64,000 nucleotides of DNA from Eretmocerus hayati (lineage: Eukaryota > Arthropoda > Insecta > Hymenoptera > Aphelinidae): assembly GCA_029851415.1 (NCBI GenBank), contig CM056741.1, forward strand, positions 90,865,282 to 90,929,281. The letters run 5' to 3'. Below the pieces are notes generated by a model. That model did not search any database, was not told where the DNA came from, and saw only the letters and a program-made list of their open reading frames with translations. A program made the position numbers and the translations under genes. Positions 17,691 to 52,536 of the stretch are shown one piece after another (within the stretch, counting starts at the first letter, position 1; each line of letters starts with the position of its first letter).

Positions 17691-19325
17691 ATGGGAGAGT
17701 CGACGCCGAGCGGGCCACCGACTCAGGTTAGCGCGGAAAAACACAAAAACGCTATCTTTGTACTCGCTCTATCAGTGGCATTGATGAACATATTGTGTTC
17801 ACATACTTCCAAAGATTTTTTCACGACTTTTCCAATCAACCCTTCCACTGTTACGCAGCATCAACCCTCTCTCCCGAAAATCTATGGTGAAGTTCAGCGA
17901 TTGATATCTCGAAAAGCCCATCTTAGAAGTTGCTATAACTTTCTCCACCAGAGCTCATTCTAATATACTTTGGAATGAGAAAACTTCGAGAGTGGGCACT
18001 TGCTTCGTTTGAACGATACGAATTTTTGGATGTAGAAAAGTGAGCGTGGCCGGACCGTTTTCGTTGAGCCAGGCGGCCCCGGGTAGCCCGGCGCGCATAC
18101 GAATCCGTAACGTAAAGCTTGCCTCACTGATGCCCCTTGAAATTTGTTGCTGTGTAGAACTCTGTCTAATAATCCGTCCGCAGAAATCATTAGGAGGTTT
18201 CTCATTGTGAAATGCAAACAGTTTCAAATTTTTGAAGGGATTTGAGAGAACAAATCGGGCAATTGATAGATTAAATAGCTCCATGACGAGATATATTTCA
18301 TCTTGAAAGTCAATTATCTCAATCCCAAATTGTTTGTTACCTGGTTGATGCAGAAAATATCTGTGCCTCCTGTATCTCCTACGAAAATCAGTTTATTCGA
18401 CTATCTGGGATGAGAAAGCTGACTCCCAAGATGAAACATGTTTCGTCATGGTGCTATTCCATCTGTCCATCACCCGATTTGCTCTCTCAAATCGCTTTGG
18501 AAAGTTGAAACTGTTCGCATTCCAATTCTAGTATGAGTAGTTCCGCTCGAAACAGACCTACGGAAAAGGATCATGTCTCAAATTTTTTTCTTGAATTTTT
18601 CATTCGATTCTATGGTACAAAATATGAACTTCTCACTACCTATAGGGCCCCAGAAAAATTTTCCAGGTACCTTCAACGTACATTACTTTGTTCTTTTGAA
18701 TTATTTTTAAACAAAAAGTTAGGGTTTTTTTCCACAGAATGAATTTTTCTGGAATTCGTTCACAGATACAGAGATGCGGTTTACAGTATTCGGAAGGTCT
18801 TTAAAAAACCTATCGAAATCGGCCTTGTGAAGTTGATTTTGATGTCTTGGGTAATTTTATCAGGCAGAAGAGTGAAGAATATAGAAGATTAAATTTCTCG
18901 GATACCCAATTTCCTTGAAATTTTGAAAATTTGATATCTCATGTGAAATTATGTGTTCTTTCAGAGATAATATTCCCGGATCCCTCTTTTGCGTTCTAAC
19001 ACCTATTTTTGCCCATCATCACACATCCATTTTCCAGGCTTTTGGAAACCATCTGTTTTCTGCGCATGCGCAGGAATTTGGATCCTTGGAACCAATTTCA
19101 TTGGGGAGCCAAGAAAATTTCCTTCAAAATGACCACCTGCCAAAGTCAATTTCATGCATTTTAAGCGAATCTACAACGTATGAAAGATGAGCCTACAGCT
19201 CGAGTGCGACACGTCGATGTACGCCATCGAACGGGGCCAGGCGTGGATTTTCCTCAGGGTGTGTCCAGAAAAGAGCCCGGCGCGTGGCGCCGCTCCCGGC
19301 ACCGGTGCTGGCGCGCGCTAAAAAT
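17691..19325. repeat. Left arm of foldback element D
   Basis: Read as reverse complement, this segment is collinear with 34867-36126. The outer end is atgggagagtcgacgccgagcggg, mirrored by gctcggcgtggactttcccat ending at 36126. Shared interior landmarks include the fragment agagcgagtacaaagata, the rcGG-rich gcgcgccgggctacc segment, the gcgcatgcgcagaaaaca segment and a CpG-rich tip (19270-19320) next to tgtgtccagaaa. The left arm is longer because it carries an internal repeat of a 300-base section (about 17955-18290 resembles 18290-18530). No gene is recognised in it; short frames mirror those in the other arm. Confidence 0.85.
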
Positions 19326-19371: not shown

Positions 19372-19507
19372 GTTGTACACTGGGCAGGAAGGTGAACCGC
19401 AGTGCATCGATATCTGCTGTCTCACTCGCACTCATAGGTTAGGGTACCATAATCTATGAGTGCGAGTGAGACAGTAGATCTCGATGCACTGCAATTCACC
19501 TCCCTGC
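19372..19507. repeat. Small inverted-repeat element, first part
   Basis: The segment tacactgggcaggaaggtgaa...ctcactcgcactcatag is mirrored by ctatgagtgcgagtgag...ttcacctccctgc. The symmetric end (caagtgta) is found at 34794-34801, on the far side of the LTR element. The MITE-like hairpin was therefore whole before the LTR element landed in it. Confidence 0.8.
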
Positions 19508-20357
19508 TGTAATGTCGGTAAAAATTTTAAAATATATATTCGAAAAATATAAATTATACTTATAGATAGAAAGTTACACGGTAAAATGTAACCTTAATTT
19601 CACGGAATACATTATCAAGAGGAATGAATCTCGGGAAAGATGACATGTGAAAATACTAACTTTCATTCATTATTTTTATCAGATGATGGATGAAAACATC
19701 GCGTTTCGTGGGAACTCCGTCAAATCAATGTAACTTCTTTTTGAAAGGTAAAAATCATTAAAATCCATCGTAAAATCATATTTTCGGTAATTTCATGTAA
19801 AATCATCGTGAACTCAGAAATATGAGTAGAATCTATCGAGGTCAGGCTAAAATCATCGATGTTGTCCAGAGAGCATTGCACAACGGAATTTGACCTGAAA
19901 TGTCAACGTCTCGTCAAAATTCCCGAGTGCTCTACATTCCTCAGTCCATCTCGATGCTGATAGGTGCACAGTTGAACATTGAGCAAAAGATGCAACTATA
20001 CAAAACAAGAATGGAAGAGCTGAGTGGCACGCTGGCCCTCTCCTCACACAGGTGCGCATGCATAATTAATCAATGGCGCGGGCCCACAGACTCCGTTGTA
20101 TTATGATGCATGAACATCGGATAGCCCGGCACATAGGCAAACTCACCAAGTACGTAAAGATGACACTTGAGAACGAGAATGACAAATTGCCTAGTGCTCG
20201 AATCATACGAAAGTATGCCCAAAAATATGCTTGGCTCGGTCTCTTTCTCCGGAAGATGCATTTGCTCTTATGTGCGCAGATCGGTCGAGTTGACATTTTG
20301 AGTAAACAAAACTTAAATAGAACACGAGTATCGAGGACAATAATCGAGCCTATCAGA

Positions 20358-20366
20358 TATATAAAG
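20358..20366 (+). promoter_or_regulatory. LTR core promoter TATA box
   Basis: TATATAAAG lies in the middle of the 5' LTR, just before a hairpin-prone gggccttcagagggccc segment. In the 3' LTR the same place reads TATATAGAG (32813-32821), so only the 5' copy has a consensus box. The assignment rests on position and sequence alone. Confidence 0.5.
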
Positions 20367-21684
20367 AGGGCCTTCAGAGGGCCCAGGTGGACTTGTTTTT
20401 TTAGTATAGTTTTGGAGTGACTCCGGCACAGTCGACTTTTCCGAGTTTTCACGAGCTCTTGATACAAAAGCAAGTAATAAGTGCAAGTGAAATTACTATC
20501 AATATAATATTGGAAGTGGACTGTGCATCATCAGGAAGAGGCACTTCAAATTGTCAGAGTGCAGTGTAACCAAAAGGAAATAACAGAAAACCCCAAGAAA
20601 GGTGGATTATCTACCAGTGCCTGTCAGCAGTACAGGATTCCTCCACAGCCAACTATATAACCACAAGTGAGTAATTTTAAGTATCAATCCTAAATTTGCA
20701 CTATACCGATCCGTGCAACTCCACAGTTCTACCCCGTTTAAATAGTAAGGATAGTAGGAATTTTCCCGAGTGTAATTGTGGTTGGCGAGTGCATAATTCA
20801 CCCCAAGTTTTCAGTGTTACTCAAACCTCGTGTCAATTCTTTCGTGGATTCCGTTTCACCAGGGTTTGTCGAGTCTCGAAGAAGGGAATTAAGCTAAAAG
20901 AGAATCATTTCAGGCCAGTACAATAGGGCAATATCACTTTTATCGTCGAATTCTCGCGCTACCCGAGTATTTTCGAAGTACCCCAAATTTCGCCCATGGT
21001 TTGCTCACATTGATTAAATTCATAGATCAGCGTGCATAATCTATTTGAATAGTGTTCCAGCTCGAAAACTAGCTATTGTGAGCTTCATTTTGATACCTAG
21101 ATCTCGAGAAATTGACGTTTGCGCACCTCCCAGATTTTCGGTCGACTAATTGCAATTTTCGCGCATGAACCACCCGTAACTATTTTATTTTCGATTTTAA
21201 CATCATAATAGAGTGTGGGGTACTCAGACACGTAGTCTACCTACCTTTCGGAACTTCTACAGAGTGAATTCACATAATATTTGACCCGCCTAGGTAAAAT
21301 CATCCATTTTTCGGTAGCCGACCCGAGCGACGGAAAGAGCATTTTTCTCCCTTCGATTCGACTACATTGCAAAGTGAACTCAATTAGAGGGCTATTAAAG
21401 GTTTCCTAGTGTAGTTCAAAGGTACCAGTAGGTAAACAGCCAAGTTTAAACTCATCCCAAGTGTTTGCAGTGAAGATATTCAAACTCAACACCCATTTTG
21501 CCCCATATCGCTACCGTATTGGACTTAACACAGGTTTTGTTCAAAACTCAACAACTACTGTGAAATTGACCAGCAACGGTCATTTGACATTTAGATTACT
21601 TCTTTGCGCGTATTTCAAGCTAAACTAGAGTCGATTAGAATCGACTCTAGTTTAGCTTGAAAGTTTAGTCTAGTGGGTAGACCC

Positions 21685-22272
21685 AATGGTCATCGAGTTA
21701 TGAGGAATTCCGCTCGCGACTAAAATCACCTGTCGCATAGGTACATTTTGTCGAAATAATGTTTGTCAACGTACCTACAGAATATTCAAGGGTTTTTAAC
21801 GCATTTGGCGAATAGCAGAGGTCTTGAAGAGTAGTTCCAAATCCCAAGAGTCGCCCTTTAGGTAATAGACACTGAATACCGAGCCAAAAATCCATTGAAA
21901 CTCGGTTAGTCCCATAAGAGAGCCAGCTCCACTATCCAATATATACATATATATATACTACTAGAGTCGATTCTACCCAATGGTCATCGAGTTATTAGGA
22001 ATTCCGCTCGCGACTAAAATCACCTATTGCATAGGTACATTTTGTCGAAATAACGTTTGTCAACGTACCTACAGAATATTCAAGGGTTTTTAAACGCATT
22101 TGGCGAATAGCAGAGGTCTTGAAGAGTAGTTCCAAATCCCAAGAGTCACCCTTTAGGTGATAGACACTGAATACCAAGCCGAAAATCCATTGAAACTCGG
22201 TCAGTCCCATAAGAGAGCCAGCTCCACTATCCAATATATACATATATATATACTATACATATATAGAGTTTT
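21685..22272 (+). repeat. 294-bp tandem duplication unique to the 5' LTR
   Basis: Each copy begins aatggtcatcgagttat and ends in the tatatacatatatatata run. The 3' LTR has one copy only. Because LTRs are identical at integration, the duplication arose after insertion. Confidence 0.9.
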
Positions 22273-22683
22273 GGGCCCACAGCATTGCGAGAGCAGTGCA
22301 GTGTAAGAGTAACGTGTTAGGCCACTCTCTCTCTTACTTGTCCCGCGCGCAAGCTAGTCTGCGCAGCTAGGGAAAACTCAAGCTAGACGAGGGCGTTAGG
22401 GCACATCCACCAGATTAGCTCTTGACAGACCGAATACGAGTGAACCACTGATCGCCAACAAGGATCCACCCACTCATATTATTGAACAACTCCCTTTTCT
22501 TTCTCTTCTTGCCCCAAATCCCGAGAGCATACTATTCAGTTAGTGGCTCAAAACTAGGGCTAGCACTGGGAAGGTATAGGCCATAAGATTACCATTGGCA
22601 ACAATACACCGATGCAAATTATACCTTTCTAGAGCTTACAATAAATATAACTAGACGTCACAGGTCTAGTTGTATACTCATTT

Positions 22684-22701
22684 TGGTGCACGTCGGCCGG
22701 G
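22684..22701 (+). promoter_or_regulatory. Candidate tRNA primer binding site
   Basis: TGGTGCACGTCGGCCGGG begins with the TGG that pairs with a tRNA CCA end. It lies 11 bases after the LTR, which is farther than usual. I cannot match it to a named tRNA by eye. Confidence 0.35.
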
Positions 22702-22763
22702 AAAAGTGAAGAAAAGATTTGGGATAATGTTCAGATTTGAAATTTCACCAGTCAAGTCTGAAA

Positions 22764-23723
22764 ATGTTGGATCAGATTGACTCGCAGAGTGCAAAGAAGG
22801 TTACTTCCGAGCTCCCGATTTCTCCAAAATTCACTCAGTTGGCAGCAATTGACGTGAACGATACGCTTTTCAACCAGTTTTTGAACAAATCCAAGGAATA
22901 TAGAGAAGCAATTGGCATAGTCAGCCACCCACAGAGGACAGCGCAAATTGCAACTGACCCGAATAGCATCGAGAACGAGATCAATAAGACTTTGGATTCT
23001 TATTATCTGGACGCCAAATTTAGAGGTCTCAACTGTCCACAGCCTTGTAAGCCAATTCGACGTGATTTAGGAAGATCAATCTTTGGGACCTGGAGGGACA
23101 GGAAGTGTAATACTCCTGCCTTGTCGAGTATCTCAGAAGAATTATCTTCTGAGATCGAGCCAATCCAACTCAATCCAGCCCGTCAAAACATCATCAAAGC
23201 ATCTAAATTCGACTTTCCACCTAGATTCAGTGATAAAGCGGATTCTGGAGACAAACAAATTGGGACGAAGCACACAAAATCGGCAGGAGCCAAGGCCATT
23301 GGGTTAACAAGTACCCACTTGAATGAGCACAATTCATCAGATCCCACGGTTCCACACCATGATTTGAACCCCATTGGAGAACAAAACCAACCACAGTTGC
23401 TGACGAAGACAATATCTCATCTTTCAGGTAACCAGAACCTCAAAGAGAAGAGAACCACAGAGTATTTTGAGGACCAGGAAAACGTGAAAGAGCTAACAGA
23501 TCTACGGAGAGAAAGATATAACAAGCGTGGATATAATTGCTATGATGTCTTCGAATTTGCTGCACGAGATTCAGGATCCTTGATCCGGACCTGTACGTTC
23601 CGGAGAAAACGAAGCAGTCGTCCCAGAGTCTGTTTTGAAAGACGGAAACTGGACTCATCCAGAGGAACACCTTCAAACTTGACCGAAAACGGAGACAAAT
23701 TGCAAGAATTTCGCTCCTCTTGA
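22764..23723 (+). CDS. Unknown ORF1 of the 15.3-kb element
   Basis: This is 319 residues from the first ATG (the frame is open from 22737). It is hydrophilic and charged, with no membrane segment and no motif I recognise. A CPQPC short cysteine pair lies near residue 93, and a basic RRKRSS run lies near residue 288. It stands where the matrix/N-terminal part of gag would be, 124 bases before the next ATG and in another frame. It could be an accessory protein or the N-terminal half of gag separated by mutation. It is the only clearly intact long ORF of the 5' half. Confidence 0.55.
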   Translation: MLDQIDSQSAKKVTSELPISPKFTQLAAIDVNDTLFNQFLNKSKEYREAIGIVSHPQRTAQIATDPNSIENEINKTLDSYYLDAKFRGLNCPQPCKPIRRDLGRSIFGTWRDRKCNTPALSSISEELSSEIEPIQLNPARQNIIKASKFDFPPRFSDKADSGDKQIGTKHTKSAGAKAIGLTSTHLNEHNSSDPTVPHHDLNPIGEQNQPQLLTKTISHLSGNQNLKEKRTTEYFEDQENVKELTDLRRERYNKRGYNCYDVFEFAARDSGSLIRTCTFRRKRSSRPRVCFERRKLDSSRGTPSNLTENGDKLQEFRSS

Positions 23724-23847
23724 TTAGTCAGCTTCGAATTTGTTTAATATTTTGGAAAAGTTCTTGAGGACAGCCCAAGTATATTTCATACCATCTTGAA
23801 CTGGCTTGACCAACCTCGGCTAGTCGCACTCGAGTTACTTTGCCAAG

Positions 23848-24958
23848 ATGACATTCAGTGAATCTGGACATTTTGGAGTTAGGGGAATATCAATCAAAGA
23901 TGCTCTCGATTTGATCCCTCGATTCAATGGAGAAAATATTAGCCTGAACGAATTTCTTGATGGTTGTCAAAATGCCAGAGAAATTACTCCCATTCCATTT
24001 GGAAGACCAAGTGACTAAACTCATTCGAGTTAAACTATATGGCGAAGCTTTGAGATGTGTCAGTGGACGCACCTTCGAGACAATCGATGAAATAGATGCT
24101 TTTTTCGAAAACATTTTCGGCTCTTCAAGAACTTATTATGAATGGACAAGTGACTTAGCAACAATAAAGCAGAAGCCTTGTGAGACAGTGATCGTGTATC
24201 TTAATCGCCTGCGTGAGATAGAGAAGCAGATTTTGAAATCAGCTACTCGAGAGAAACGAATCAAGGACGCTGCACAATTCAAAGAAGAACTGAGAGCAGA
24301 TTGCCTCAGATTTTTCCTTCGGGGTTTGAGATGGCAAATCCGAGCTAGAGTTGGGACCCCAAAGAAGTTTGACAAAGCTCAAGACATAGCTTTGGCAATA
24401 GAACGAGAATTTGCTCATGCAGATGTAGACGTGACACCCAACGAACGTGATGCAAAAACTAAACAATCTCGAGAAACCAGGGATGTGAATTTAGTTGAGA
24501 ATACAAACAACGACGCGATCACTATTCGTCAACATTGCCGAAAACCTGGTCCTTTTCTGATGAATTGTATGGAATTATTCATTGAAACATGTGGAGGTCA
24601 CAATGTGGGACCCAGTCAATGCTGCATGGATTCAAAAATTGCCGAATGTGGTTACGGGAATAATCCTAACCCGTCCACGAAATCACATAATTCCCAGAGA
24701 TACGAAGATTACGACTCAAGACCAGACCAGAACTATCGAGAATGTTTGACTGATAATACCATAACAGATAGATGTTATCAGGGCTTCATGAAAGCCGAAT
24801 GTGACTATTCACCATCTTATAATCGAGTGACATGCTTCTATTGCGGAAAAATTGGGCATTACAAACGCAACTGCTACAAATTCCAGGATGATCTTCGCAA
24901 TGGTGATCACATTCCGGAAAACGCCGATGGTCTCCCTCGGGTGGGCGAGAACAGGTAG
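23848..24958 (+). pseudogene. gag: capsid and CCHC zinc knuckle, frameshifted
   Basis: The ATG at 23848 opens a frame that reads IPRFNGENISLNEFLDGC, a typical start of an LTR-element capsid, and stops at 24016-24018. The capsid continues in the next frame from about 24000: KLIRVKLYGEA, the EWTSDLATIKQ block and FFLRGLRWQIR are the classic retrotransposon gag landmarks. A single CCHC knuckle (CFYCGKIGHYKRNC) lies near 24834-24875. One indel between about 23985 and 24016 thus breaks the gene. The C-terminal end overlaps the protease frame by about 52 bases, with the pro frame in -1. Confidence 0.82.
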
Positions 24959-26511
24959 ACTACTTCCGTTCTTCGCCCAAATATTTTCACTGCTCTGGAG
25001 ACGAGCATGTGAGGATCAGAGATGTTCATTTGAGTCAAAACGACCATGCTCCCGTTATCAATTTAGACCTTCAGGATTCAGACAAGCCATTAACTTTCAT
25101 CTTAGATACAGGAACAGGCCCAAACTTGATCAAGAAGTGTGACCTCCCACCAAATGCAGTAATGAGAAAACAAGATTCCATCTTGCTGAAAGGAATCACG
25201 GCCAAGTTTGTTAGGACTCGTGGGAATACATTCTTGGAATTTTGGGAACATTCAGTTGAATTCTGTATTGTTGGCGATGATTTTGCAATCAAAGAAGCAG
25301 GCGTCCTAGGGAGCGATTTTTTCATACAGACTAAAGCAGAGATAGATTATTCAGGAAAATATGTTCAACTTAATGATGATGTATTGATTCCTTTCAAATC
25401 TGTCAGTATTTTAAATGAGTGTTCCCTTCAAAGAGAGACATCAGACAAACTCATGAACATGATAGATGATGGGCTCCATGGAGGAGATAAGAAGGAATGT
25501 CATGACGTCTGGATCAATGATAGACAAATAAGGTTGGATTCAGACGATGAGAGTAATACTGCCTGTCCGAGGGGAGATAAACGACAGAACACGGAGACTT
25601 TGAATGGAACTCCCGGGACGACTGATGGGAGTCAAACCGGCCAAATCCTGAAACATTATGGGCACGTTGATGCAATTAGTAGTGGAAAAATTATTCACGA
25701 GGAAATGCCAGCGAATAATAAGCAAACAGGTGAACTTGACCTCAGAAATGTGGGAACAATTAGAGATCTTAGCATACGAAACTTGTTGGACAGTCCAAAA
25801 CATCTGTTGAAAGATTGTCAACTAGTTGAAAAGATACCAGGAGATTTTTCCGATTTGTTCAATTTAAGATCGGGAATTGATGGAGATGGTGCAACTTTTG
25901 AAAATCAAATTGATACACGTTCAGATGAGGATATAGAGGTGTTTTGCAAGGAAAATATTTGTGGAAAATGTCAAGACCCATTCGATGTAGGAAAAAGTGA
26001 AGATCTGATTTTATTTGATGGATTCTGTGAGCGATGGGAAGATAAGATGAATAGCCCAATGATAGAGGACATTGGTGGAAATTCGGCTTCGGGCTACGAA
26101 GAATCGCATCATGGTGGCAATGACGACTCTTGTGTTGACGACCGCAGAAATTTATATGTTGAAATCGAGAATTCAGAGGAATACGTTGTTGGAAAATGTG
26201 ATTTTATTGAATCTTATACGAAGGAAGATGAACTTCGATCGGTCAAAAGGATCCGTAGTCGGTCCGCAGTGAGGATACTGAGGCCTCTAGACCCACGCGT
26301 TTATAATTATGAAAACGAGATATTCAACAGTTATATATTATTAGACCTTTGCGGAAGGTTGGTACATGAGCTGGAGGTATCACATGTTTGGAAAGAAAAG
26401 ATGCCAAGGTCCGGAACCATTGTAAGATTACAGAATACAGAAAACCCATATCTAGAGAGTAAATTGAAACTTGGTCATATAGTTTCACGTCGTTCACATC
26501 AATTCCACTGA
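24907..26511 (+). CDS. Aspartic protease followed by unknown domain
   Basis: The frame is open from 24907, overlaps the end of gag and is -1 relative to it, so expression by -1 frameshifting is plausible; there is no early ATG. The protease spans roughly 25050-25400: FILDTGTGPNLIKK (DTG catalytic triplet), LKGITAKFVRTRG, AGVLGSDFF and the IDYSGK block, all in family order. What follows is unlike pol: about 370 residues of acidic, polar sequence with a CGKCQDPF cysteine pair near 25960 and an SRSAVRILRPLDPR block near 26255. It ends in one TGA (26509-26511), after which the same frame stays open. The protease call is firm; the rest is unknown. Confidence 0.75.
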   Translation, partial: SHSGKRRWSPSGGREQVDYFRSSPKYFHCSGDEHVRIRDVHLSQNDHAPVINLDLQDSDKPLTFILDTGTGPNLIKKCDLPPNAVMRKQDSILLKGITAKFVRTRGNTFLEFWEHSVEFCIVGDDFAIKEAGVLGSDFFIQTKAEIDYSGKYVQLNDDVLIPFKSVSILNECSLQRETSDKLMNMIDDGLHGGDKKECHDVWINDRQIRLDSDDESNTACPRGDKRQNTETLNGTPGTTDGSQTGQILKHYGHVDAISSGKIIHEEMPANNKQTGELDLRNVGTIRDLSIRNLLDSPKHLLKDCQLVEKIPGDFSDLFNLRSGIDGDGATFENQIDTRSDEDIEVFCKENICGKCQDPFDVGKSEDLILFDGFCERWEDKMNSPMIEDIGGNSASGYEESHHGGNDDSCVDDRRNLYVEIENSEEYVVGKCDFIESYTKEDELRSVKRIRSRSAVRILRPLDPRVYNYENEIFNSYILLDLCGRLVHELEVSHVWKEKMPRSGTIVRLQNTENPYLESKLKLGHIVSRRSHQFH

Positions 26512-27597
26512 CCTAGAAAAAAATCTAGATATTTATTGATAATCAAAGATACATTTTCGATTATTGGTAAGATGCAAGCACCGATCCGACTACACGCAGA
26601 TGTTTTGATCCACGGAAAATCGGATGTACGAGTGAAGAAATCCGTCAATGATGAGCGAGATGGAAGAGGAGAGGCCAGGACACCAGTGGTAACATTCGAG
26701 GGAAGAGATAGCCACTTGAAAAATATAAATTCAACGATTTTGAGTGAGAATGGTAGCAATTTGATTTTTCACAACGAACAGAATGGCATTACTCCATTCA
26801 TGGATATAGAGTTGATTGAAGCCCAGGACGCCGGAACAAGAGGATTAAAGGTTACAGCGAATATCGACAACGATGTAGCGATCATAGTACACATACGCTC
26901 AACAAAAAAGAGGTTAGTGAGGGAATTCCAGATGACTTCAGGAGGAAATTCATCTCTGAAGAAGAATGTTCGTGCTTTTTTTGGCGATGAAAGTGACAAA
27001 CTTGGCGAATCAGAGAGTAACAAACTAAGAAATGAGAATAAAACGCACTTGTCAGCGGAGCTCAAAATCAAAATGAGAGACAACTCTGCGCAAAATGACA
27101 AATTACTTCCGACCAGACCGATCAAAGATGATGAGAAAGGAGAAAATACCGTCCTGGACATCGATCTTCTTTTGTGTCACAGAGGCCCTGAAGCTAAGCT
27201 GAGAAGGAATAGATTGATAACTATCAGTGAGACAAGAGGACCTCAACTGATAAATATTCAAAACAATGATTCATGTATGAGATTGAAAGATAATAAAAAC
27301 AAACACAAAACAGAGGGAATCCTATCCTAAGGACACATGGGACATCCATCAATCAAATGCAATCAAAAATTCGTAAGAAAGGTGGACGTTTTCATCGAGA
27401 AAATCTATCAGCGCATCTTGAAATTTTCAAGGCTATTTTGGGATTATTATAACTGGAGAAATAAAAAATCTTATTTCAATCAATCCACGAGAAGACCCCG
27501 TTTATGTCAACTCAAGGAGGTGGCTCGAATGTGCCAAGAGATCAATTCCGATCACCGATATACCAATCACAGTTTTTTAGAAAAACTCCATGAGTAA
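26512..27597 (+). pseudogene. Continuation of the unknown frame after two single stops
   Basis: The frame of the protease ORF continues immediately after the TGA at 26509-26511 to a TAA at 27328-27330, and again from 27331 to 27597. All three segments share one frame and are separated only by single stop codons. The first part (ATG at 26572, 252 residues to 27327) is charged, with a DIELIEAQDAGTRGL block resembling a small beta-domain. The last part has a basic, aromatic stretch (FSRLFWDYYNWRNKK). No RT, RNase H or integrase signature is present. Confidence 0.5.
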
Positions 27598-28992
27598 TCT
27601 TGAGCTACATCTAAAGATAAAAAGGTTGTACGTACTCGCTCTGACTTTAGAAATATCCGAGGAAACAATAAATTGCAATAATTTCTCAGCAGGTATTGGA
27701 TACAACAGTAGAGTCGACCCCTTGATTTCGTGTTTGAATTGAAAAATCATCAATTCTCCTCCAAATCATTCTGATATCAGCCATCACTTGAAGAGAGCGA
27801 TGGAACATTCTTTCAGCGAGTAACTGAGAACCATCGGTCAAGAAAAAATGGACAAATCCGAATTTTTTTTCCTTCCTTTTCATTCTTCCGTCAATAGCAG
27901 AAAAAAACCATTAGTAACTCAGAAGTATCATGAGGTTGGATCTCGGTGATATTACTTGCAAAATCTTTAAAAATTTCCCTGAGAACTAATAACACGTTGC
28001 TAATAGTTATTGATATAGAACTCATTAGAGAAAACAAACTACCCATGCCAATCAAATTCTTGGGGAAGAATAATACGTGAAAATGTATACATGAGGGAAG
28101 GATGGGCTTCCTAACTTTCCAATTGAGAGATATCTTGAATTTTACTGCATGCTCAATACAGTAAATCTTACGTAAGCATCAATGTATTTGATAATCTGAG
28201 TAGTACATAGCATTACTGTAGATTATGTCAGTAGGATTCGACTATTACGAAACTAACTACAGATCTGATAGGTTCATGATGGTAATATTTCATTTTCAGG
28301 GATCACTTATAGATTCTGAGCTGAGAGTAATGTGAGGTCAACTACATCCCCGCAAGATCAAAGATTGGGGTACGTGTTATCGAAAATAGTGCCAAAAATT
28401 ATAGCACACGTTGAAAAATTAAGAGAACACGCTGGTGTTTTATTTTATAGTATTCCAAGAAGGTTCGAACTATATTTAGGATAGCCACACTAGATCACTC
28501 CACAATAACAAATAAGAATTGAAATACAAAAATGCCCACAAGTTTGAACTATTCATCAACCGTCGAACCGATATCTATTAGCTATATGAAGGAAACCGAT
28601 GAATAGCCTGCTGCTGGGGTGCGTAAACTCGACGTTCATCTTCTTACGATTACATTGATCAAACAGTCAAGCTTCAAAGAATACTGGATGTCAAGAGACG
28701 GTAAGAGACATTTACTACAGCGGTAATCTTTGTATATGTGATCAATGAAAAAGTGTTTAAGGCGACGCACCCAGCGGTCCAACCACATGCAATTGATTAC
28801 TCCAACTACTATTTGGAGAGTCGAATAAATGCCTGAAATAGTTGTCTGAAACAGACTACTGTGGACCGCGTCATAATAGAGAAGCCGGAGATTTCAACAT
28901 TATTCATTCAGAGGATTGATTGGCATCAATTCGTGAGCCTACCAGAAAAAATTCGTCTACGATAACAAACTTTCGAGATACTCATCATCAAG
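27598..28992. other. No gene recognised inside the 15.3-kb element
   Basis: This is AT-rich and stop-rich in all frames. The position between the unknown frame and the envelope-like remnant is where the missing upstream part of an envelope gene would fall, but I cannot identify it. Confidence 0.4.
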
Positions 28993-29886
28993 TTGATCAT
29001 GGATTTTGTTGACCAGAAGGTACGCTACTTATCAGGGAATGGTTTCATTTCTGACTTGTCCTTCAATATACCATCAATTTTCCATATTGATATAAATTAT
29101 CTGGTTTCGAACTCCAAGCCGGAACAAACCACTTTTGGAGTTAACCGGAAATCTGTATATCAACAAGTTACGATGATAGCAAATATTGGCATGATGAGTG
29201 CGAGATAAAGATGGAAACATGATAGAAATCCATGATCATCGAAAACCACACGGTTGAGGAATTGGGCCATCAAGGTTCCAAATTCCGAGCTGAATACTCC
29301 CTCGATGGTGAATCTCTCCCATGAGATGTTCCGAATTTGTTTGCACGGAGAACTCGCAGAAAATCGAAATTTGCAGGGAAGAACTCTCTCCGGGATGGGA
29401 CTCCTAGATGCAAGTGCTTTGGAACAACTAGCGGCAACAACGTGGGAGAAAATGTGGATGCGATTCACGACGTTCGGATCTATCAGCGCAGGATGTATGG
29501 GCCTTTTCATATTACTGAGAACTGTTAAACTCTGTGTTGACACGATCATTCACGGTTACGCTCTGTGCAGTATATACAGATGGTTCATTCATGTCCTAGG
29601 AGCAACATAGAACTCAATAACACAACCTCTGATACATCTGGGAAGAGACTACAAGGAGGGAGAAATTGATAGAACGAAAAAGGCTAAAATGCCCAACGAC
29701 GAACCTGCACAACAAGAATACGTCTCAAACAATCGCGGACATTAACCTAACCTATCATCTGACAGAAAGGACGAGACTGAACAAGATCCTACTTACGAAA
29801 ACGTAGAGGTCGTAATGAGACCGAAACCACCTCACCTATACCCGTATCTTGGGAGAACCGAATCTATGTATCACTTCACCCGCTGA
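28993..29886 (+). pseudogene. Envelope-glycoprotein-like C-terminal remnant
   Basis: All parts lie in one frame with a few stops. 28993-29208 gives 71 residues of unclear type. 29236-29610 gives a segment with a long hydrophobic span (FGSISAGCMGLFILL) followed by basic and aromatic residues and an IIHGYAL block, like the transmembrane end of glycoproteins captured by insect LTR elements from mononegavirus/chuvirus-type sources. After a TAG at 29608-29610 and a TAA near 29753 the frame goes on with a tail containing PTYENVEV and PPHLYP, which look like cytoplasmic-tail motifs. The ectodomain is not recognised. The envelope call is inference from the membrane span, the tail and the position before the 3' LTR. 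Confidence 0.45.
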
Positions 29887-30207
29887 ATGGAACAAATTAT
29901 AACTGAAGAATCATCTAATTCACAGTTGAAGAACATGGCCGCCAGAGCACCACGATGGGATGGCGTGCGTCCCGAAAGATACCCAGAGAGTTATCACGAC
30001 CTTTTGAGCTATAGTTGCGTAGGAAAACATCCAGGGATCGAACAATACTATGTAAGTTACCAGGCAGGGATACTGGAATGCAATCAATGCTATAGGAGGG
30101 ACCATTACAGCATCGCCGAGCCGGTGGGCCGAGTCGACACAGTACATATGATCGTGCTCGCAATTCGATATATTGCGAATGTGAGCGTTGTGGAACACGA
30201 ATTTTAG
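29887..30207 (+). CDS. Unknown small ORF between envelope remnant and IAP-like gene
   Basis: This is 106 residues with an ATG directly after the stop at 29884-29886 and in the same frame as the envelope tail. It has a CNQCYRRDH cysteine pair near residue 76, rich in aromatic residues around it (HPGIEQYYVSYQAG). No membrane span or signal peptide. I recognise no family; it is not a second BIR. Confidence 0.35.
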   Translation: MEQIITEESSNSQLKNMAARAPRWDGVRPERYPESYHDLLSYSCVGKHPGIEQYYVSYQAGILECNQCYRRDHYSIAEPVGRVDTVHMIVLAIRYIANVSVVEHEF

Positions 30208-30218
30208 TCGAGAGGCCT

Positions 30219-30503
30219 GTGATCCGTGGCGGGATGTGCTTGGATCAATATTTTCCAAACCTTATTTTGATAAATGTAAGACAGCAACGGGAGGCGAATG
30301 CCCACTTTCAGGCGAGAGAGATGAATGGTGATGATTCCGACATTGAAGTTATATCAGAGAGAGTGATAAGGGATCGGATTCCGAACCGGGCGATCAAGCT
30401 GACCCCGAACACCTTTCGATTAACCCGCGAGAAAGATTCCGTCAAGAAATGGAGCAATCGAACCCGATTTATGACCGACAATAACCCTGACCAGGACACA
30501 TGA
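30219..30503 (+). CDS. Unknown small ORF overlapping the IAP-like start
   Basis: This frame encodes 94 residues, acidic in the middle (NGDDSDIEVI) and basic towards the end. Its TGA (30501-30503) overlaps the ATG of the next gene (30500-30502) as ATGA. In a eukaryote such an overlap may be chance, or may reflect re-initiation on one transcript. The start is uncertain. Confidence 0.3.
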   Translation: MIRGGMCLDQYFPNLILINVRQQREANAHFQAREMNGDDSDIEVISERVIRDRIPNRAIKLTPNTFRLTREKDSVKKWSNRTRFMTDNNPDQDT

Positions 30504-31210
30504 ACCAAACGATCAGAGCCAATCATGCAACGCACAATCTATCATTTGACACACAGTGTGTGCTAGTATTGAAGCTATATTTCAACACAGGAATGGAATT
30601 CCCCTCAACCATGCAAGCTAACATGCGGAGGATGAACGGACTTTTGCTGGACATCAAGGAGAGTGACCTAATTAGAACGCGCCCAATACACCGGGATATG
30701 CTCAGCTACGAGGATAGACTACGGACATTCACGGATTGGCCAACGAATATCTGTCAACCGAAAGAGTTCATGGCCAATTCTGGTTTCTTCTACACCAATA
30801 GGAGCGATGCAGTCACCTGTTTTCATTGCGGCGGTACAATTTATCGATGGAACATGACTGACAGCCCATCGCACGAACACGCCAAATGGTTCCCGAAATG
30901 TATGTTCGTGAAAGCAGAAAAGGGACAGGAATTCATCGAAAACGCGAAACAAGAGCTAACAACGGTACTTGAACCTCCTCCGCCGAAACCCAAAGGTACT
31001 TATGTGGACCCCGCGAGTTCAATCACATGTAAAATCTGTTATGATTACAAATTAGAAGTGGTTTTTCTACCATGCTCACATCTTATAGCATGTGCTCGAT
31101 GCGCTGCAATTTTGTCCGAATGCAGCCTATGGCGGAAGAGAATAACGCACTACCTCAGATGTTCTATCCCCATAAACCTCAAAGTGGAAAGGAATCCGGA
31201 AGCAAAATGA
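30500..31210 (+). CDS. Inhibitor-of-apoptosis-like protein (one BIR, one degenerate RING)
   Basis: This is 236 residues. The BIR spans about 73-137: RLRTFTDWP, then ANSGFFYTNRSDAVTCFHCGG, with zinc ligands C107, C110, H127 and C134 at canonical spacing and the EHAKWFPKC end. A proline-rich linker (EPPPPKPKG, 158-166) leads to a C-terminal RING at about 177-219 with C177, C180, C192, H194, C198, C201 and C208 in place. The eighth ligand, expected at 211, is tryptophan (CSLW instead of CPxC). BIR-RING proteins bind caspases or IAP antagonists and act as ubiquitin ligases; here the ligase function is doubtful. It has the single-BIR layout of reduced insect or large-DNA-virus IAPs. It lies inside an LTR element, 754 bases before the 3' LTR. 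The first 45 residues may be non-native; M44 or M67 are other possible starts. Confidence 0.88.
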   Translation: MNQTIRANHATHNLSFDTQCVLVLKLYFNTGMEFPSTMQANMRRMNGLLLDIKESDLIRTRPIHRDMLSYEDRLRTFTDWPTNICQPKEFMANSGFFYTNRSDAVTCFHCGGTIYRWNMTDSPSHEHAKWFPKCMFVKAEKGQEFIENAKQELTTVLEPPPPKPKGTYVDPASSITCKICYDYKLEVVFLPCSHLIACARCAAILSECSLWRKRITHYLRCSIPINLKVERNPEAK

Positions 31211-31953
31211 TAATATCATTCTGTAAGTCAATTGAGGGTAGTAACATCCGGATCTTCGATTATGTCCCATTTTTTTTAATGTGATTGGCGTAACTCACTG
31301 CATTTTCAGCCTGTTCCGGAACGTTTGGTTAAAAATTTGATCCTAAACTAGCTTGATTGAGATTCAATTCACTTAATCGAATAAAGAATTCAATCTTGGG
31401 GGAATTACGAAAAGAAGCAGAGAAGAACAGAAAATTTGAGGATTGATTCATGGGAATTTACCTATAAATGTATTAGTGATAAGATTTTAGTTAAGTAACA
31501 TAGATTACCGATGTAGATGATGCCAGTTCACTGCTAGGTTTAGACTAATATAGATCATATACTGTTACCCAAGCATCGAAGTTAGGTGAAGATACATATA
31601 TCTTAAATGACCAGGAAACGAGGGTAATTGTTAGATAGCCGCGACCGAGTCGGTAACAAAAATATTTGATTTGATTAGACGATAATATGCATTTATAAAT
31701 ATTGAGATAAGGGTAGGTCAAACATATGATAGACTTTCCAAAAACATGATCAGGAAATTCGAATTCAGTAACCTATATTTTTGCAAAGTGCATAGAAGCC
31801 TGAGCTACCTCATAACGAAGAATATTATAAGGGATATTGATAAGATTCATACAATTGCTAAAACCTCCCAATTTTGACAATGAGATTCCAGGAAATTCAA
31901 TATCCTTAATAAAAGACATAGGGGCTCTTAGTGAACCCCTAGTGTCTTGTTTT
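31211..31953. other. Non-coding 3' region of the 15.3-kb element
   Basis: This is AT-rich with no open frame of note, between the IAP-like gene and the polypurine tract. Nothing else is recognised. Confidence 0.5.
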
Positions 31954-31963
31954 AGAGGGGAGG
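31954..31963 (+). promoter_or_regulatory. Polypurine tract
   Basis: AGAGGGGAGG abuts the 3' LTR start TGTAATG, the normal position for second-strand priming in LTR elements. Confidence 0.75.
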
Positions 31964-34789
31964 TGTAATGTCGGTAAAAATTTTGAAATATATATTCAAA
32001 AAATATAAATTATACTTATAGATAGAAAGTTATACGGTAAAATGTAACCTTAATTTCACGGAATACATTATCAAGAGGAATGAATCTCGGGAAAGATGAC
32101 ATGTGAAAATACTAACTTTCATTCATTATTTTTATCAGATGATGAATGAAAACATCGCGTTTCGTGGGAACTCCGTCAAATCAATGTAACTTCTTTTTGA
32201 AAGGTAAAAATCATCAAAATCCAACGATAAATCATATTTTCGGTAATTTCATGTAAAATCATCGTGAACTCAGAAATGTGAGTAGAATCTATCGAGGTCA
32301 GGCTAAAATCATCGATGTTGTCCAGAGAGCGTTGCACAACGGAATTTGACCTGAAATGTCAACGTCTCGTCAAAATTCCCGTGTGCTCTACATTCCTCAA
32401 TCCATCTCGATGCTGATAGGTGCACAGTTTAACATTGAGCAAAAGATGCAACTATACAAAACAAGAATGGAAGAGCTGGGTGGCACGCTGGCCCTTTCCT
32501 CACACAGGTGCGCATGCATAATTAATCAATGGCGCGGGCCCACAGACTCCGTTGTATTTTGATGCATAAACATCGGATAGCCCGGCACATAGGCAAACTC
32601 ACCAAGTACGTAAAGATGACACTTGAGAACGAGAATGACAAATTGCCTAGTGCTCGAATCATACAAAAGTATTCCCAAAAATATGCATGGCTCGGTCTCT
32701 TCCTCCGGAAGATGCATTTGCTCTTATGTGCGCAGATCGGTCGAGTTGACATTTTGAGTAAACAAAACTTAAATAGAACACGAGTATCGAGGACAATAAT
32801 CGAGCCTATCAGATATATAGAGAGGGCCTTCAGAGGGCCCAGGTGGACTTGTTTTTTTAGTATAGTTTTGGAGTGACTCCGACACAGTCGACTTTTCCGA
32901 GTTTTCACGAGCTCTTGATACAAAAGCAAGTAATAAGTGCAAGTGAAATTAATATCAATATAATATTGGAAGTGGACTGTGCATCATCAGGAAGAGGCAC
33001 TTCAAATTGTCAGAGTGCAGTGTAACCAAAAGGAAATAAACAGAAAACCCCAAGAAAGGTGGATTATCTACCAGTGCCTGTCAGCAGTACAGGATTCCTC
33101 CACAGCCAACTATATAACCACAAGTGAGTAATTTTAAGTATCAATCCTAAATTTGCACTATACTGATCCGTGCAACTCCACAGTTCTACCCCGTTTAAAT
33201 AGTGAGGATAGTAGGAATTTTCCCGAGTGTAATTGTGGTTGGCGAGTGCATAATTCACCCCAAGTTTTCAGTGTTACTCAAACCTCGTGTCAATTCTTTC
33301 GTGGATTTCGTTTCACCAGGGTTTGTCGAGTCTCAAAGAAGGGGATTAAGCTAAAAGAGAATCATTTCAGGCCAGTACAATAGGGAAATATCACTTTTAT
33401 CGTCGAATTCTCGCGCTACCCGAGTATTTTCGAAGTACCCCAAATTTCGCCCATGGTTTGCTCACATTGATTAAATTCATAGATCAGCGTGCATAATCTA
33501 TTTGAATAGTGTTCCAGCTCAAAAACTAGCTATTGTGAGCTTCATTTTGATACCTAGATCTCGAGAAATTGACGTTTGCGCACCTCCCAGATTTTCGGTC
33601 GAGTAATTGCAATTTTCGCGCATGAACCACCCGTAACTATTTTATTTTCGATTTTAAGATCATAATAGAGTGTGGGGTACTCAGACACGTAGTCTATCTA
33701 CCTTTCGGAACTTCTACAAAGTGAATTCACATAATATTTGACCCGCCAATGTAAAATCATCCATTTTTCGCTAGCCGACCCGAGCGACGGAAAGTGCATT
33801 TTTCTCCCTTCGATTCGACTACATTGCAAAGTGAACTCATTTAGAGGGCTATTAAAGGTTTCCTAGAGTAGTTCAGAGGTACCAGTAGGTAAACAGCCAA
33901 GTTTAAACTCATCCCAAGTGTTTGCAGTGGAGATATTCAAACTCAACACCCATTCTGCCCCATATCGCTACCGTATTGGACTTAACACAGGTTTTGTTCA
34001 AAACTCAACAACTATTGTGAAATTGACCAGCAACGGTCATTTGACATTTAGATTACTCCTTTGTGCGTATTTCAAGCTAAACTAGAGTCGATTCTACCCA
34101 ATGGTCATCGAGTTATGAGGAATTCCGCTCGCGACTAAAATCACCTATCGCATAGGTACATTTTGTCGAAATAACGTTTGTCAACGTACCTACAGAATAT
34201 TCAAGGGTTTTTAAACGCATTTGGCGAATAGCAGAGGTCTTGAAGAGTAGTTCCAAATCCCAAGAGTCGCCCTTTAGGTAATAGACACTGAATACCGAGC
34301 CGAAAATCCATTGAAACCCGGTCAGTCCCATAAGAGAGCCAGCTCCACTATCCAATATATACATATATATATATATATACTATACATATATAGAGCTTTG
34401 GGCCCACAGCATTGCGAGAGCAGTGCAGTATAAAAGTAACGTGTTAGGCCACTCTCTCTCCTACTTGCCCCGCGCGCAAGCTAGTCTGCGTAGCTAGGGA
34501 AAACTCAAGCTAGACGAGCGCATTAGGGCACATCCACCAGATACGCTCTTGACATACCGAATACGAGTGAACCACCAATCGCCAACAAGGATCCACCCAC
34601 TCATATTATTGAACAACTCCCTTTTCTTTCTCTTCATGCCCTAAATCCCGAGAGCATACTATTCAGTTAGTGGCTCAAAACTAGGGCTAGCACTGGGAAG
34701 GTATAGGCCATAAGATTACCATTGGCAACAATACACCGATGCAAATTATACCTTTCTAGAGCTTACAATAAATATAACTAGACGTCACA
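31964..34789 (+). repeat. 3' LTR of the 15.3-kb element
   Basis: This is 2826 bp, collinear with the 5' LTR but with a single copy of the 294-bp segment. Scattered substitutions and small indels against the 5' LTR indicate an insertion that is not very recent. It is followed by the CTGC target duplication at 34790-34793. Confidence 0.92.
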
Positions 34790-34802
34790 CTGCCAAGTGT
34801 AC
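34790..34802. repeat. Small inverted-repeat element, second part
   Basis: ctgccaagtgtac completes the hairpin element that starts at 19372, after allowing for the duplicated CTGC. This fixes the exact insertion point of the LTR element. Confidence 0.75.
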
Positions 34803-34866: not shown

Positions 34867-36126
34867 TTTGAGCCTGCTCAGAGCGCGGTGCCAGCGCGGG
34901 TGCCGGGAACGGCGCCACGCGCCGGGGCGCGGCGTGGGCGCTCCGTTTCTGGACACACCCTTACTGCTGTGTCCAGTACCTCCGAGGATTTACCAAGATT
35001 CAGTGGTCTTTTGAACGTTGCAACTCTAGCTCAAATGCATGGAAATGACTCCAGCAGGGGGTCATATTCAATAAAATTTTCTTGGCTCCCCAATGAAATT
35101 GGTTCCGAGGATCCAATTTTCCGCGCATGCGCAGAAAACAGACGATTTCCAGAAGCCTGGAGAATGTATTTGTGATAATTGGCAAGAATAGGTGTTAAAA
35201 CGCGAAAAAGGAATTACGGACTATTTTTTCCTAAAAGAACACAAAATTTCACATGAAATATCAAATTTTTGAAATCTTAAAGAATTGAGTTTCCGAGAAA
35301 TTCAATCTTCTATATTTTTCACTCTTTTGCCCGATAAAGTCACTCAAGACGTCAAAATCAACTCTACAAGACCGATTTCGATAGGTTTTTGAAGACCTTT
35401 TGAATGACGCAAATTGCATCTCTGTATCTGTGAACGAATTCGAGGAAAATCCATTTTATTGAAAAAATACCCTAACTTTTTGTTGAAAATAAGAAGGTAC
35501 CTGGAAAATTTTTTGGGTCCCCATAGGTAGTGAAAAGTTCATATTTTGTACTATAGAATCAAATGAAAGAGTCAAGGAAAGAATTTGAGACATGACCCTT
35601 TTTCGTAGGTCTGTTTTGCGCGGAACTACTCGTATACAATGAGCCTTTTGACAATTTCTGCGAGCGAATTATTAGACAGAGTCTCACATAGCAACAAAAT
35701 TTAAGGAGCATCGGTAATTCGTATGCGCGGGCTACCTGCGGCCGCAACGAAAGCGGTACGGACACGCTTCATTTCCTACACTCAAAAATTCGTATCGTTT
35801 GAACGAAGCAAGTACCCAATCTGGCAGTTTTTCTATTCCGAAGTATATTAGAGTGAGCTCTGGTGAGGAAATTAACATCAGATTCCAAGACGGGGTCTTA
35901 AGCTACCGATTGCTCAACTTCACTTTAGATTTCCGAGAGGAAGGATTGATGCTACGAAACTGTGAAAGGGTTCATTGGAAAGGTCGTGAAAAAATCTTTG
36001 GAAATATGTGAACACAAAATGTTTATCAATGCCACTGATGAGGGATAGAGCGAGTACAAAGATAGTGTTTTTGTGTTTTTCCGCGCTAACCGGAGTCGGT
36101 GGCCTGCTCGGCGTGGACTTTCCCAT
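34867..36126. repeat. Right arm of foldback element D
   Basis: It is the inverted partner of 17691-19325. It opens with a CpG-rich tip (34878-34950, agcgcggtgccagcgcggg, ggcgccacgcgcc) and tttctggacacac, then runs through ttggctccccaatgaaattggttcc, the gcgcatgcgcagaaaac word, the ccccataggtagtgaa word and agagcgagtacaaagatag to tttcccat at 36126. Divergence from the left arm is clear but order and orientation are fully kept. No gene is recognised. Confidence 0.85.
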
Positions 36127-50451: not shown

Positions 50452-52536
50452 GACTAAGAGCTAGCTCGAAAATTAGGGATTGATCAGAGGCACAGGAGTA
50501 GAATGACGCCGATTGTCCATGGAAACGTGAATCTGTTGGAATTAGCACGCTAACCTGATACAGGAAAAAGATGGCGTCCGAGGAAGCCCCCGACTTTTGC
50601 GGGATGATGGAATTGATAAGAGGCGAGGATGAAACTTTTTTCTGATGATAGTACTAGCACTCACCAACCCAAAAACCTTGGAGGCAGAAAGCCACCCCCG
50701 TGCCTAGGGGTTGGCAGCCTCCCCTTGAGCCCCCAGAAAAATTGAAAGAAGTTCTGATAAGGGGCAAGGCTGCCTCCTGGCAATATCGATCCTCTGAGTG
50801 TTTCTCAGACCCTATGCACGGAGGCAAAGCCCTAGCCAGGTACAAAAGCCCGCAAAATGCGTTATCGTGATGGCAGCCGGACGTCTGATTTATGACTGCG
50901 GAAAAAGTTTTGATAAGGGGCAAGGCTGCCTCCTGGAAATATCGATTCTTTGAGTGATTTTATGTTCCCATGCGCGGAGGCAGAGTCCTAGCCTGGTACA
51001 AAGTCCCGGAAAATGTATTTTCGTGATAGCGGCCGGACGTCTGATTTATGACTGCGGAAAAGTTTTGATGAGGGGCAAGGCTGCCTCCTGGAAATATCGA
51101 TTCTTTGAGTGATTTTGATTCCTCATGCACGAAGGCAGCGCCTTAGCCTGGTACAAAGACCGGGAGAATTCGTTTTCGTGATGGTTGCTTAACTTCCACA
51201 ATAGCGAATAATGACAAAATTTCGATCTTCATACGGGTACCTCCTGCAATCATAATTATATTCCATTCATCACCGAGAAAATATAGCGAGTTATTCTCAA
51301 AACCTCTATTATGGTCAAAAAGTAGAAGAAATCGTCATCAAACTTATGAGAACATAATCGAATGAGGATTCAGGGGATATTGATTCATTCTCTTTCACTG
51401 TCGCAGCTCGTTTCATTTTTATTATCATCCTCTGAGTCGTATTCAATATCAAGTTCTTCATCTGAACAGTCTCGGACCAAATCCTCATCTGTCAATATAA
51501 TATCAATGTTGTGATTGCGACGTAAGAATCGATATTTCAGAAGGAATCACATGCATTGAGGCGATCATTACTCATGAGATCTCTGAATGAATGAATATAT
51601 GCCAAGCACCCTTGTTCAAATATGCTCTTATAAGTGACATATGATGACATCTACTACTATTTTTTCGTGATAGAAGTTTTGGAAATTAAATTACTCGCTT
51701 TACTTCCTCTCTGGAGAATGAAGTATATTTGCAGGAGGTATCCGTATAAAGATCGGAATCTTGTCGTTATTCGCTATCAAGGAAGCTAAGCTGCCATCAC
51801 GAAAAATACTTTCCGGGACTTTGTACCAGGCTAGGTCGCTGCCTCCATGCGAAAGATCTCGAAAACACTCGAAGAATCGATATTTCCAGGAAGCAGCCTT
51901 GCCCCTCATCAAAACTTCTTCCGCAGTCATAAATAAGGCAGCCGGCTGCCATCACGGAAACGCATTTTCCGGGACTTTGTACCAGGCTACGTCTCTGCCT
52001 CCGTGCATGGGGGCTTAACATCACTCAAAAAATTGATATTTCCAGGAGGCAGCCTTGTTCTTCATCAAAACTTTTTCCGCAGTCATACATCAAGCACCCG
52101 GCTCCCATCACGAAAACGCATTTCCCGGGCTCCTGTACCTGGCTAGGGCTCTGCCTCTGTGCATAGGGTCTGAGAAACACTCAAAGGATCGATATTCCCA
52201 GGGGGGCAGCCTTCCCCCTCATCAAAACTTTCTCGAATTTTTCTGGAGGCTTAAGGGGAGGCTGACAACCCCTAGGCACGGGGGTGGCTTTCTGCCTCTA
52301 AGGTTTTTGGGTTTGTTATTGCTAATACTATCATCAGAATGAAGTTTCATCCTTGCCTCTTATCAATTCCATCATCCCGGAAAACTCGGGGGCTTTCTCG
52401 GCCGCCATCTTTCTCCTGTACCAGGTTAGCTTGCTAATTCCAACGGATTCACGTTTCCATGGACAATTAGCGTCATTTCACGTTGAGGCAGCCCGTGCCT
52501 CTGATCAATCCCTAATTTCCGAGCTAGCTCTTAGTC
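50452..52536. mobile_element. Foldback element H, 0.8-kb arms with 157-bp tandem units
   Basis: The ends are gactaagagctagctcg at 50452 and its complement ending at 52536. The arms are 50452-51251 and 51734-52536, with a loop of about 480 bases. Each arm contains about three tandem units of roughly 157 bases whose marker aggggcaaggctgcctcc occurs at about 50760, 50918 and 51073, and inverted in the right arm. It starts only 16 bases after palindrome G ends. I saw no convincing target duplication. It is the second structure here with foldback-type architecture, but the units are unrelated to those of G. Confidence 0.88.
51385..51650 (-). pseudogene. Coding remnant in the loop of foldback H
   Basis: Two overlapping minus-strand frames: 51650-51537 (37 residues, IFEQGCLAYIHSFRDL in the middle) and 51543-51385 (52 residues, KYRFLRRNHNIDIILTDEDL then a very acidic end with DSEDD). 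A one-base shift near 51540 would join them into about 90 residues with plausible composition. No family is recognised. It may be the last trace of a protein once encoded by the element. Confidence 0.3.

Follow-up and report, generated by a model that had tools for sequence, protein, structure and literature searches.

The window analysed here is a stretch of 64,000 nucleotides from the wasp Eretmocerus hayati (contig CM056741.1, positions 90,865,282 to 90,929,281, forward strand). It contains a long terminal repeat (LTR) retroelement of 15,282 bp (19508-34789), in which a BIR-RING open reading frame (ORF), related to the inhibitors of apoptosis (IAPs), lies between an envelope remnant and the polypurine tract. 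Comparison with other copies in the genome confirmed that this gene belongs to the element lineage and is common to several families of one genome. The window element has the following features (aa, amino acids; RT, reverse transcriptase; classes A and B of copies are set out further below):

19504..19507: target-site duplication CTGC, left copy
19508..22662, + strand: 5' LTR, 3155 bp, with an extra duplicated unit not in the 3' LTR
22684..22701, + strand: candidate primer-binding site, starting TGG, at an equal offset in 9 of 10 copies printed
22728..23723, + strand: ORF1, a 331-aa frame without Pfam match; in copy L033 its homologue and gag share a frame
23948..24958, + strand: gag ORF with CCHC zinc knuckle; protein 44-45% identical to gag of three class B copies
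24907..26511, + strand: protease ORF (weak RVP match, under the Pfam cut-off) and spacer; aligns to class B pol, stopping before the RT domain
26512..27330, + strand: 272-aa ORF without Pfam match
27331..29130, + strand: stretch without long forward ORFs
29236..29883, + strand: C-terminal remnant of a chuvirus-like glycoprotein (PF24664, Monjiviricetes_fusion, 3.3e-19)
29887..30503, + strand: Cys/His-rich "preIAP" gene, broken into two frames, without Pfam family
30491..31210, + strand: intronless BIR-RING (IAP-like) ORF of 239 aa; a residue other than cysteine stands at one RING zinc-ligand position
30716..30913, + strand: BIR domain (PF00653, 3.1e-20)
31025..31150, + strand: RING domain (PF13920, 1.2e-9)
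31954..31963, + strand: polypurine tract AGAGGGGAGG, directly 5' of the 3' LTR
31964..34789, + strand: 3' LTR, 2826 bp
34790..34793: target-site duplication CTGC, right copy

An initial annotation had placed an IAP-like gene inside a 15.3-kb LTR element, with an envelope-like remnant upstream and a polypurine tract downstream, and this arrangement stands. Over 2819 aligned columns the two LTRs show 68 mismatches (97.6% identity; Kimura two-parameter distance, K2P, 0.025), most of their difference in length being a 336-column gap that reflects a duplication in the 5' LTR only. The LTR termini read TGTAATG...GTCACA, so that the paired LTRs with TG..CA ends, the target duplication and the polypurine tract together identify an LTR retroelement. 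Within the 5' LTR, a 295-bp unit at 21665-22252 is present as a tandem duplicate, and it is single in the 3' LTR. The whole element has inserted into a foldback-like element, since inverted repeats flank it on both sides and a hairpin is split by the insertion. The imperfect inverted repeat (17691-19312 and 34890-36126) consists of pieces that are 78-94% complementary; the small hairpin, which had been described as interrupted and indeed is, has 62-nt arms at 19384-19507, stops at the 5' LTR and, by eye, picks up again past the 3' LTR.

In the three forward frames of the window internal region, a Pfam search at E up to 0.5 gave no match for RT, RNase H, integrase, ankyrin or F-type envelope. 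As judged from its sequence, the window copy is non-autonomous, because RT, RNase H and integrase matches are missing from these frames, and it has no RT of its own by which it could be placed in the Metaviridae (Ty3/gypsy). It was probably mobilised in trans, with RT and integrase supplied by relatives. Its BIR-RING protein is probably impaired, since one RING zinc ligand is missing.

When the genome was searched with the BIR-RING DNA, 19 close matches (85-100% identity, the window included) and six weak ones were found; 18 of the close matches cover all or nearly all of the query. For the 18 other copies, 9.9 kb of upstream sequence was taken, and for three class B copies the next 9.9 kb as well. 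Glycoprotein and preIAP sequence lies directly 5' of the BIR-RING gene in all 18, and the 3' LTR begins 741-764 bp past the gene in the eight loci that cover the 3' flank. Eight copies (class A: L014, L015, L016, L017, L021, L022, L024 and L026) can be aligned with the window element over its internal region; one of these has undergone a large deletion and carries an insert. Seven (class B: L009-L013, L020 and L023) have only the 3' part in common with the window and carry other genes upstream, while L018, L019 and L025 are fragmentary or ambiguous and of unclear class. Six copies were examined for target duplications, which are identical on both sides in five (CTGC, GTGG, CCGG, ATAC and ATTT) and read ATTC/ATTA in the sixth, and no repeat of at least 30 nt frames the BIR-RING gene in the window copy. 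Because the surroundings are the same in 18 of 18 copies, the target duplications differ and no such repeat frames the gene, a late, independent insertion of the gene into the window copy alone is excluded.

Class B includes larger copies. Two that were measured from the start of the 5' LTR to the end of the 3' LTR span 22,650 bp (C2:52535183-52557832) and 22,643 bp (C2:52954870-52977512). Their order, pieced together from different copies, in some of which several ORFs are interrupted, is LTR, ORF1 and gag (a single frame of 822 aa in L033), pol, two ankyrin ORFs, a Baculo_F-type envelope, a chuvirus-like glycoprotein, the Cys/His-rich ORF, BIR-RING and LTR; domains were assigned by Pfam in L010, L011, L013, L020 and L023, and by ORF text in the remaining copies. 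The pol pieces from L035 and L011 have the protease-RT-RNase H-integrase order of the Metaviridae (Ty3/gypsy), with matches to RVT_1 (1.7e-31), RT_RNaseH (5.3e-35), Integrase_H2C2 (4.9e-18) and rve (6.1e-10) and a weak RVP match under the cut-off; RVT_1 and RNase H matches were found in L035 and L033. The envelope resembles the baculovirus F protein, as in errantiviruses (PF12259: 5.1e-30 in L011, 1.9e-24 in L030, 4e-25 in L020), and the glycoprotein is of the chuvirus type known from Anakin elements (PF24664: 4e-206 in L013, also 2e-214 and 1.9e-200). No BEL/Pao-specific Pfam family, as would be expected of Anakin, was found in the pol pieces; which families are specific to BEL/Pao, and that the RT_RNaseH families are usual for gypsy, is presumed here.

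The gag proteins of the two classes are only 44-45% identical, whereas their LTR DNA is about 92-94% identical, and for this reason the two forms look recombined. The candidate primer-binding site has a common core in all eight class A copies printed and differs in the two class B copies printed. Because of this difference, the two classes may use different tRNA primers. One class B copy has two differences in the first 756 LTR bases, and another an LTR K2P of 0.024 over 757. In all seven class B copies, preIAP is an open frame of 155-198 aa and follows the glycoprotein stop in frame. The same position behind a single stop is seen in two families (L013:9294-9296; L030:3829-3831), with the first methionine 15-17 codons in, and preIAP could possibly be made by read-through or reinitiation. 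Structure prediction for preIAP gave a mean pLDDT (predicted confidence score) of 36.

How regularly does the gene accompany the elements? The LTR search (40 matches scored of 79 candidates) yielded six same-strand pairs within 40 kb, and all six enclose a BIR-RING gene. Six of the 28 unpaired LTR rows lie no more than 25 kb from a copy of the gene; the other 22 do not, and therefore solo LTRs or unscored partners are common. A search with the gag DNA of class A, in which all 25 candidates were scored, gave 27 rows at 24 loci, four rows being one broken locus. The gene is found no more than 25 kb downstream at 18 of these 24 loci, including loci of other families at 66-70% identity. Among the gag rows of the window subfamily (94-100%), nine of ten have the gene 5.1-6.0 kb downstream and the tenth has it at 56 kb on the same strand. 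The search proposed in the initial annotation for same-LTR copies, and for full copies without the gene, has therefore come out in favour of the gene as a regular component.

The glycoprotein leads to the same gene. This search (63 of 400 candidates scored) gave 64 rows, and at 54% identity or more a BIR match follows 605-2198 bp downstream in 35 of 38 rows (34 of 37 loci); the three close rows that have none end before residue 577 of 709. Among the distant rows, at 37-44% identity, none of 26 has a BIR match within 12 kb downstream. These 26 rows, on contigs C1-C4, belong to other glycoprotein-bearing elements of the same genome, and 25 of them have no stop. The BIR-RING protein search returned 93 rows, 49 with BIR and RING in one frame, of which 36 are without a stop; the remaining rows are partial and include frameshifted element copies and a host IAP (a 519-aa frame, 52% identical in the BIR). 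Two further families, to which loci L027-L031 and L032 belong, share the 3' module. Five of these loci (L027, L029, L030, L031 and L032) have the order glycoprotein, preIAP, BIR-RING. Ankyrin was matched in L028 and an F-type envelope in L030; the pieces of L027 and L032 that were searched for the latter yielded none. Compared with L011, the preIAP proteins of these families have 51% and 35% identity; compared with L004, their BIR-RING proteins have 48% and 45%. Rows with frames of 205-214 aa suggest a fourth family.

The BIR-RING gene is under purifying selection in the class B copies and decays in class A. Stops are found in none of seven class B copies and in six of nine class A copies, the window copy having none (Fisher p 0.011; three broken copies whose class is unclear are not counted). 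No frameshifting indel occurs in the gene in seven copies, whereas each copy has 6-12 of them over the adjoining downstream 750 bp. Differences at codon positions 1/2/3 sum to 11/11/56 between L004 and four other class B copies, and to 72/41/113 when the window is compared with seven copies. The same comparison within class A gives 240/218/355 for the protease ORF, 163/149/196 for ORF1 and 338/358/374 for a non-ORF stretch. L004 and L006, both of class B, differ by 15 synonymous changes and one non-synonymous change, and the ratio of non-synonymous to synonymous substitution rates (dN/dS) is 0.02; it ranges from 0.02 to 0.46 over ten class B pairs and from 0.21 to 0.44 between the window and class B. 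In family 2, three pairs with L027 give 0.19-0.24, near-identical pairs being uninformative. The zinc-binding motif of the BIR is present, as in the IAP family, and the RING zinc ligands are complete in L004, L030 and L032; the window copy is short of one.

Where the gene came from is a separate matter. In each of three trees the element BIR-RING proteins form one clade: with support 100/99 in the first (26 rows), 99 in the second (102 rows, 23 of 125 having been dropped because the motif pattern was missing) and 100/98 in the third (34 rows: 29 chosen proteins, the host IAP and four element rows). The BIR-RING protein has a common ancestry across three families. Recent capture of the one host IAP that was retrieved was rejected, this host protein being 52% identical in the BIR and in a separate clade. 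The trees contain no viral IAP, because scans of viral contigs, in which one stretch (preIAP) and 81 stretches (BIR-RING) matched a pattern, confirmed none. The tree comparison called for in the initial annotation has been made with insect IAPs. That the gene had been captured by the element also needs rewording: it lies within the element as claimed, but this element did not capture it; it was rather inherited by the lineage, in several families. One further E. hayati protein, P0116, a 198-aa single-BIR RING protein encoded on the chromosome of 122.6 Mb, groups with the host IAP and not with the elements (94/88, on a long branch).

Why would an LTR element keep such a gene? IAP-family proteins bind caspases or their antagonists through the BIR and ubiquitinate through the RING. 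The product of the element gene would presumably be made from a subgenomic, probably spliced, LTR-driven RNA; by its kinship with the IAP family, its BIR would bind caspases or IAP antagonists and its RING would act as a ubiquitin ligase. Death might thus be delayed in cells that express the element or have newly been infected by it, which would leave such cells time to make particles or to pass DNA to the germ line. We infer an anti-apoptotic action by analogy, and the results suggest that these elements may act on cell survival much like some large DNA viruses. It is quite probable, in our judgement, that this is an LTR lineage with a selected BIR-RING accessory gene that acts on cell survival. 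A broader reading is put forward more tentatively, at somewhat short of an even chance: a complex insect retrovirus lineage, recently infectious, that accumulated genes for host control as large DNA viruses have done (the BIR-RING inhibitor, the ankyrin proteins and the Cys-rich protein), with two unrelated entry glycoproteins, one baculovirus-F-like and one chuvirus-like, and that was sustained by its anti-death gene.

Several observations weigh against the favoured reading. The four counts behind the 11/11/56 have one common reference (L004), class A gag is without a third-position excess (123/113/98), and dN/dS is as high as 0.46 in one class B pair. The gene is not found within 25 kb at 6 of the 24 gag loci, among them the one with the gene at 56 kb and another whose glycoprotein is truncated, and 22 of the 40 LTR rows have neither a partner nor the gene within that distance. 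The class B copy L023 has no gag-pol, its 5' LTR standing directly before an ankyrin ORF, and the probable assignment of class B pol to Ty3/gypsy is drawn from domain content. As for the donor, the element clade, on a long stem, joins neither the host IAP nor any named insect IAP in the trees with support. Finally, selection on the protein is not proof of a block to apoptosis.

The last of these points leads to the alternatives, which are not mutually exclusive in the likelihoods assigned to them. Insect IAPs have a role in immune signalling too, and the BIR-RING protein could be a ubiquitin ligase that acts, like DIAP2, on innate immune signalling or on a restriction factor rather than on apoptosis. 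The complete RING in L004, L030 and L032 and the ankyrin ORFs in the same elements would fit, and the structural part of the favoured reading would be unaffected; the tree gives no placement of the element clade with DIAP2, however, and we regard this as rather unlikely. That the gene is passive cargo, hitch-hiking with no role for element or host, agrees with the stops in six of nine class A copies and the RING ligand missing from the window copy. It is hard to reconcile with the third-position excess, dN/dS down to 0.02, the absence of frameshifting indels in seven copies and of stops in class B, and the retention of the gene across families whose proteins are about half identical, and passive carriage is accordingly improbable.

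Selection might instead operate at the level of the wasp, the gene having been domesticated, for example as a factor used against the whitefly host. Viral genes have been domesticated in parasitoid wasps (PMC10259472), and the preIAP search returned five proteins among 758 candidates, all from E. hayati and annotated as wasp genes. Yet the copies that give the low dN/dS are scattered insertions having LTRs and target duplications (in one, 756 LTR bases show no more than two differences), which is the pattern to be expected if selection acts while elements replicate, and domestication is improbable. One chance insertion of a host IAP retrocopy into a single LTR element can be regarded as refuted. 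The ORF is intronless and the wasp has IAP genes of its own, but the gene is at an equal position in 18 of 18 other copies with differing target duplications, its order recurs in other families, and the element IAPs, with the nearest host IAP 52% identical in the BIR, are a clade of their own.

Three further observations concern the rest of the window. An open 1205-aa ORF at 59407-63024 resembles, by eye, another Ty3/gypsy pol and possibly marks a little-damaged element at the window end. A 409-aa ORF at 57075-58304 on the reverse strand looks, by eye, like the C-terminal part of a non-LTR retrotransposon RT. Adjoining 299-bp tandem arrays with unlike units lie at 47827-49964 and 50744-52231, followed by a 156-bp array that, by eye, recurs inverted.

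Inhibitors of cell death are characteristic of large DNA viruses, and the usual view of retroelements is that they have few genes besides gag, pol and env. The BIR-RING gene of these insect LTR elements is retained under purifying selection in several families of one genome, in company with ankyrin genes and a pair of unrelated genes of envelope type. What the initial annotation proposed for one element can be put more strongly: an insect retroelement lineage of several families carries an IAP-type accessory gene under selection. It becomes possible to test whether endogenous retroviruses interfere with the survival of host cells as a means of reaching the germ line, and how large a gene load an LTR element can bear. 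Searches of the open PMC literature, outside which most subscription papers lie, listed no insect LTR element described as carrying a BIR-RING gene. A recent LTR/gypsy burst is described for the E. hayati genome (PMC13116730), and "apoptosis" and "ankyrin" are mentioned nowhere in the available portion of that main text, nor in those of PMC13172572 and PMC12992720. Troyka was rejected as a relative, being described in the accessible text as having no envelope, 3-bp duplications and no occurrence in Hexapoda (PMC12440569).

That no LTR family carrying an IAP was known must be qualified, since BIR domains are on record from a planarian LTR element, Burro / GYPSM1, in work reportedly due to Jurka 2007 and Grohme 2018. 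Burro is also the closest system known: in both cases a gypsy-like LTR element of over 20 kb carries BIR and ankyrin. According to the part of the description available, Burro has gag, pol, an env-like region, BIR and ankyrin, with BIR, ankyrin, RING-type and BCL2 motifs, and MATH, in a giant ORF1 polyprotein and env in frame between gag and pol (PMC6431247). The wasp elements, compared by description, have instead separate ORFs 3' of pol: the ankyrin ORFs between pol and the envelopes, and the BIR-RING ORF behind two envelope genes.

Anakin elements, mosquito BEL/Pao LTR elements with a chuvirus glycoprotein, resemble the wasp elements in having acquired a glycoprotein of this type, but their LTRs are given as around 670 bp (PMC7642597, in part), compared with about 2.8 kb. 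The wasp elements further differ from Anakin in their RNase H domains, which we take to be those usual for gypsy, and in their F-type envelope, ankyrin and IAP genes. The available text of one survey reports no clear evidence for capture of chuvirus-like glycoproteins by Gypsy elements (PMC10084718), and the wasp lineage would add a gypsy-type carrier. The same survey mentions, from the whitefly Bemisia tabaci, a complete element that has a glycoprotein of this kind and is left unclassified. With the insect errantiviruses it has in common Ty3/gypsy-type pol domains and a baculovirus-F-like envelope, and it is unlike them in its second, unrelated glycoprotein and its accessory ORFs (two ankyrin, preIAP and BIR-RING). 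The IAPs of baculoviruses and other large DNA viruses combine a BIR with a C-terminal RING, are intronless and are presumed to be host-derived. The wasp BIR-RING gene is likewise an intronless combination of BIR and RING, but, unlike the baculovirus genes, it is carried by an LTR retroelement.

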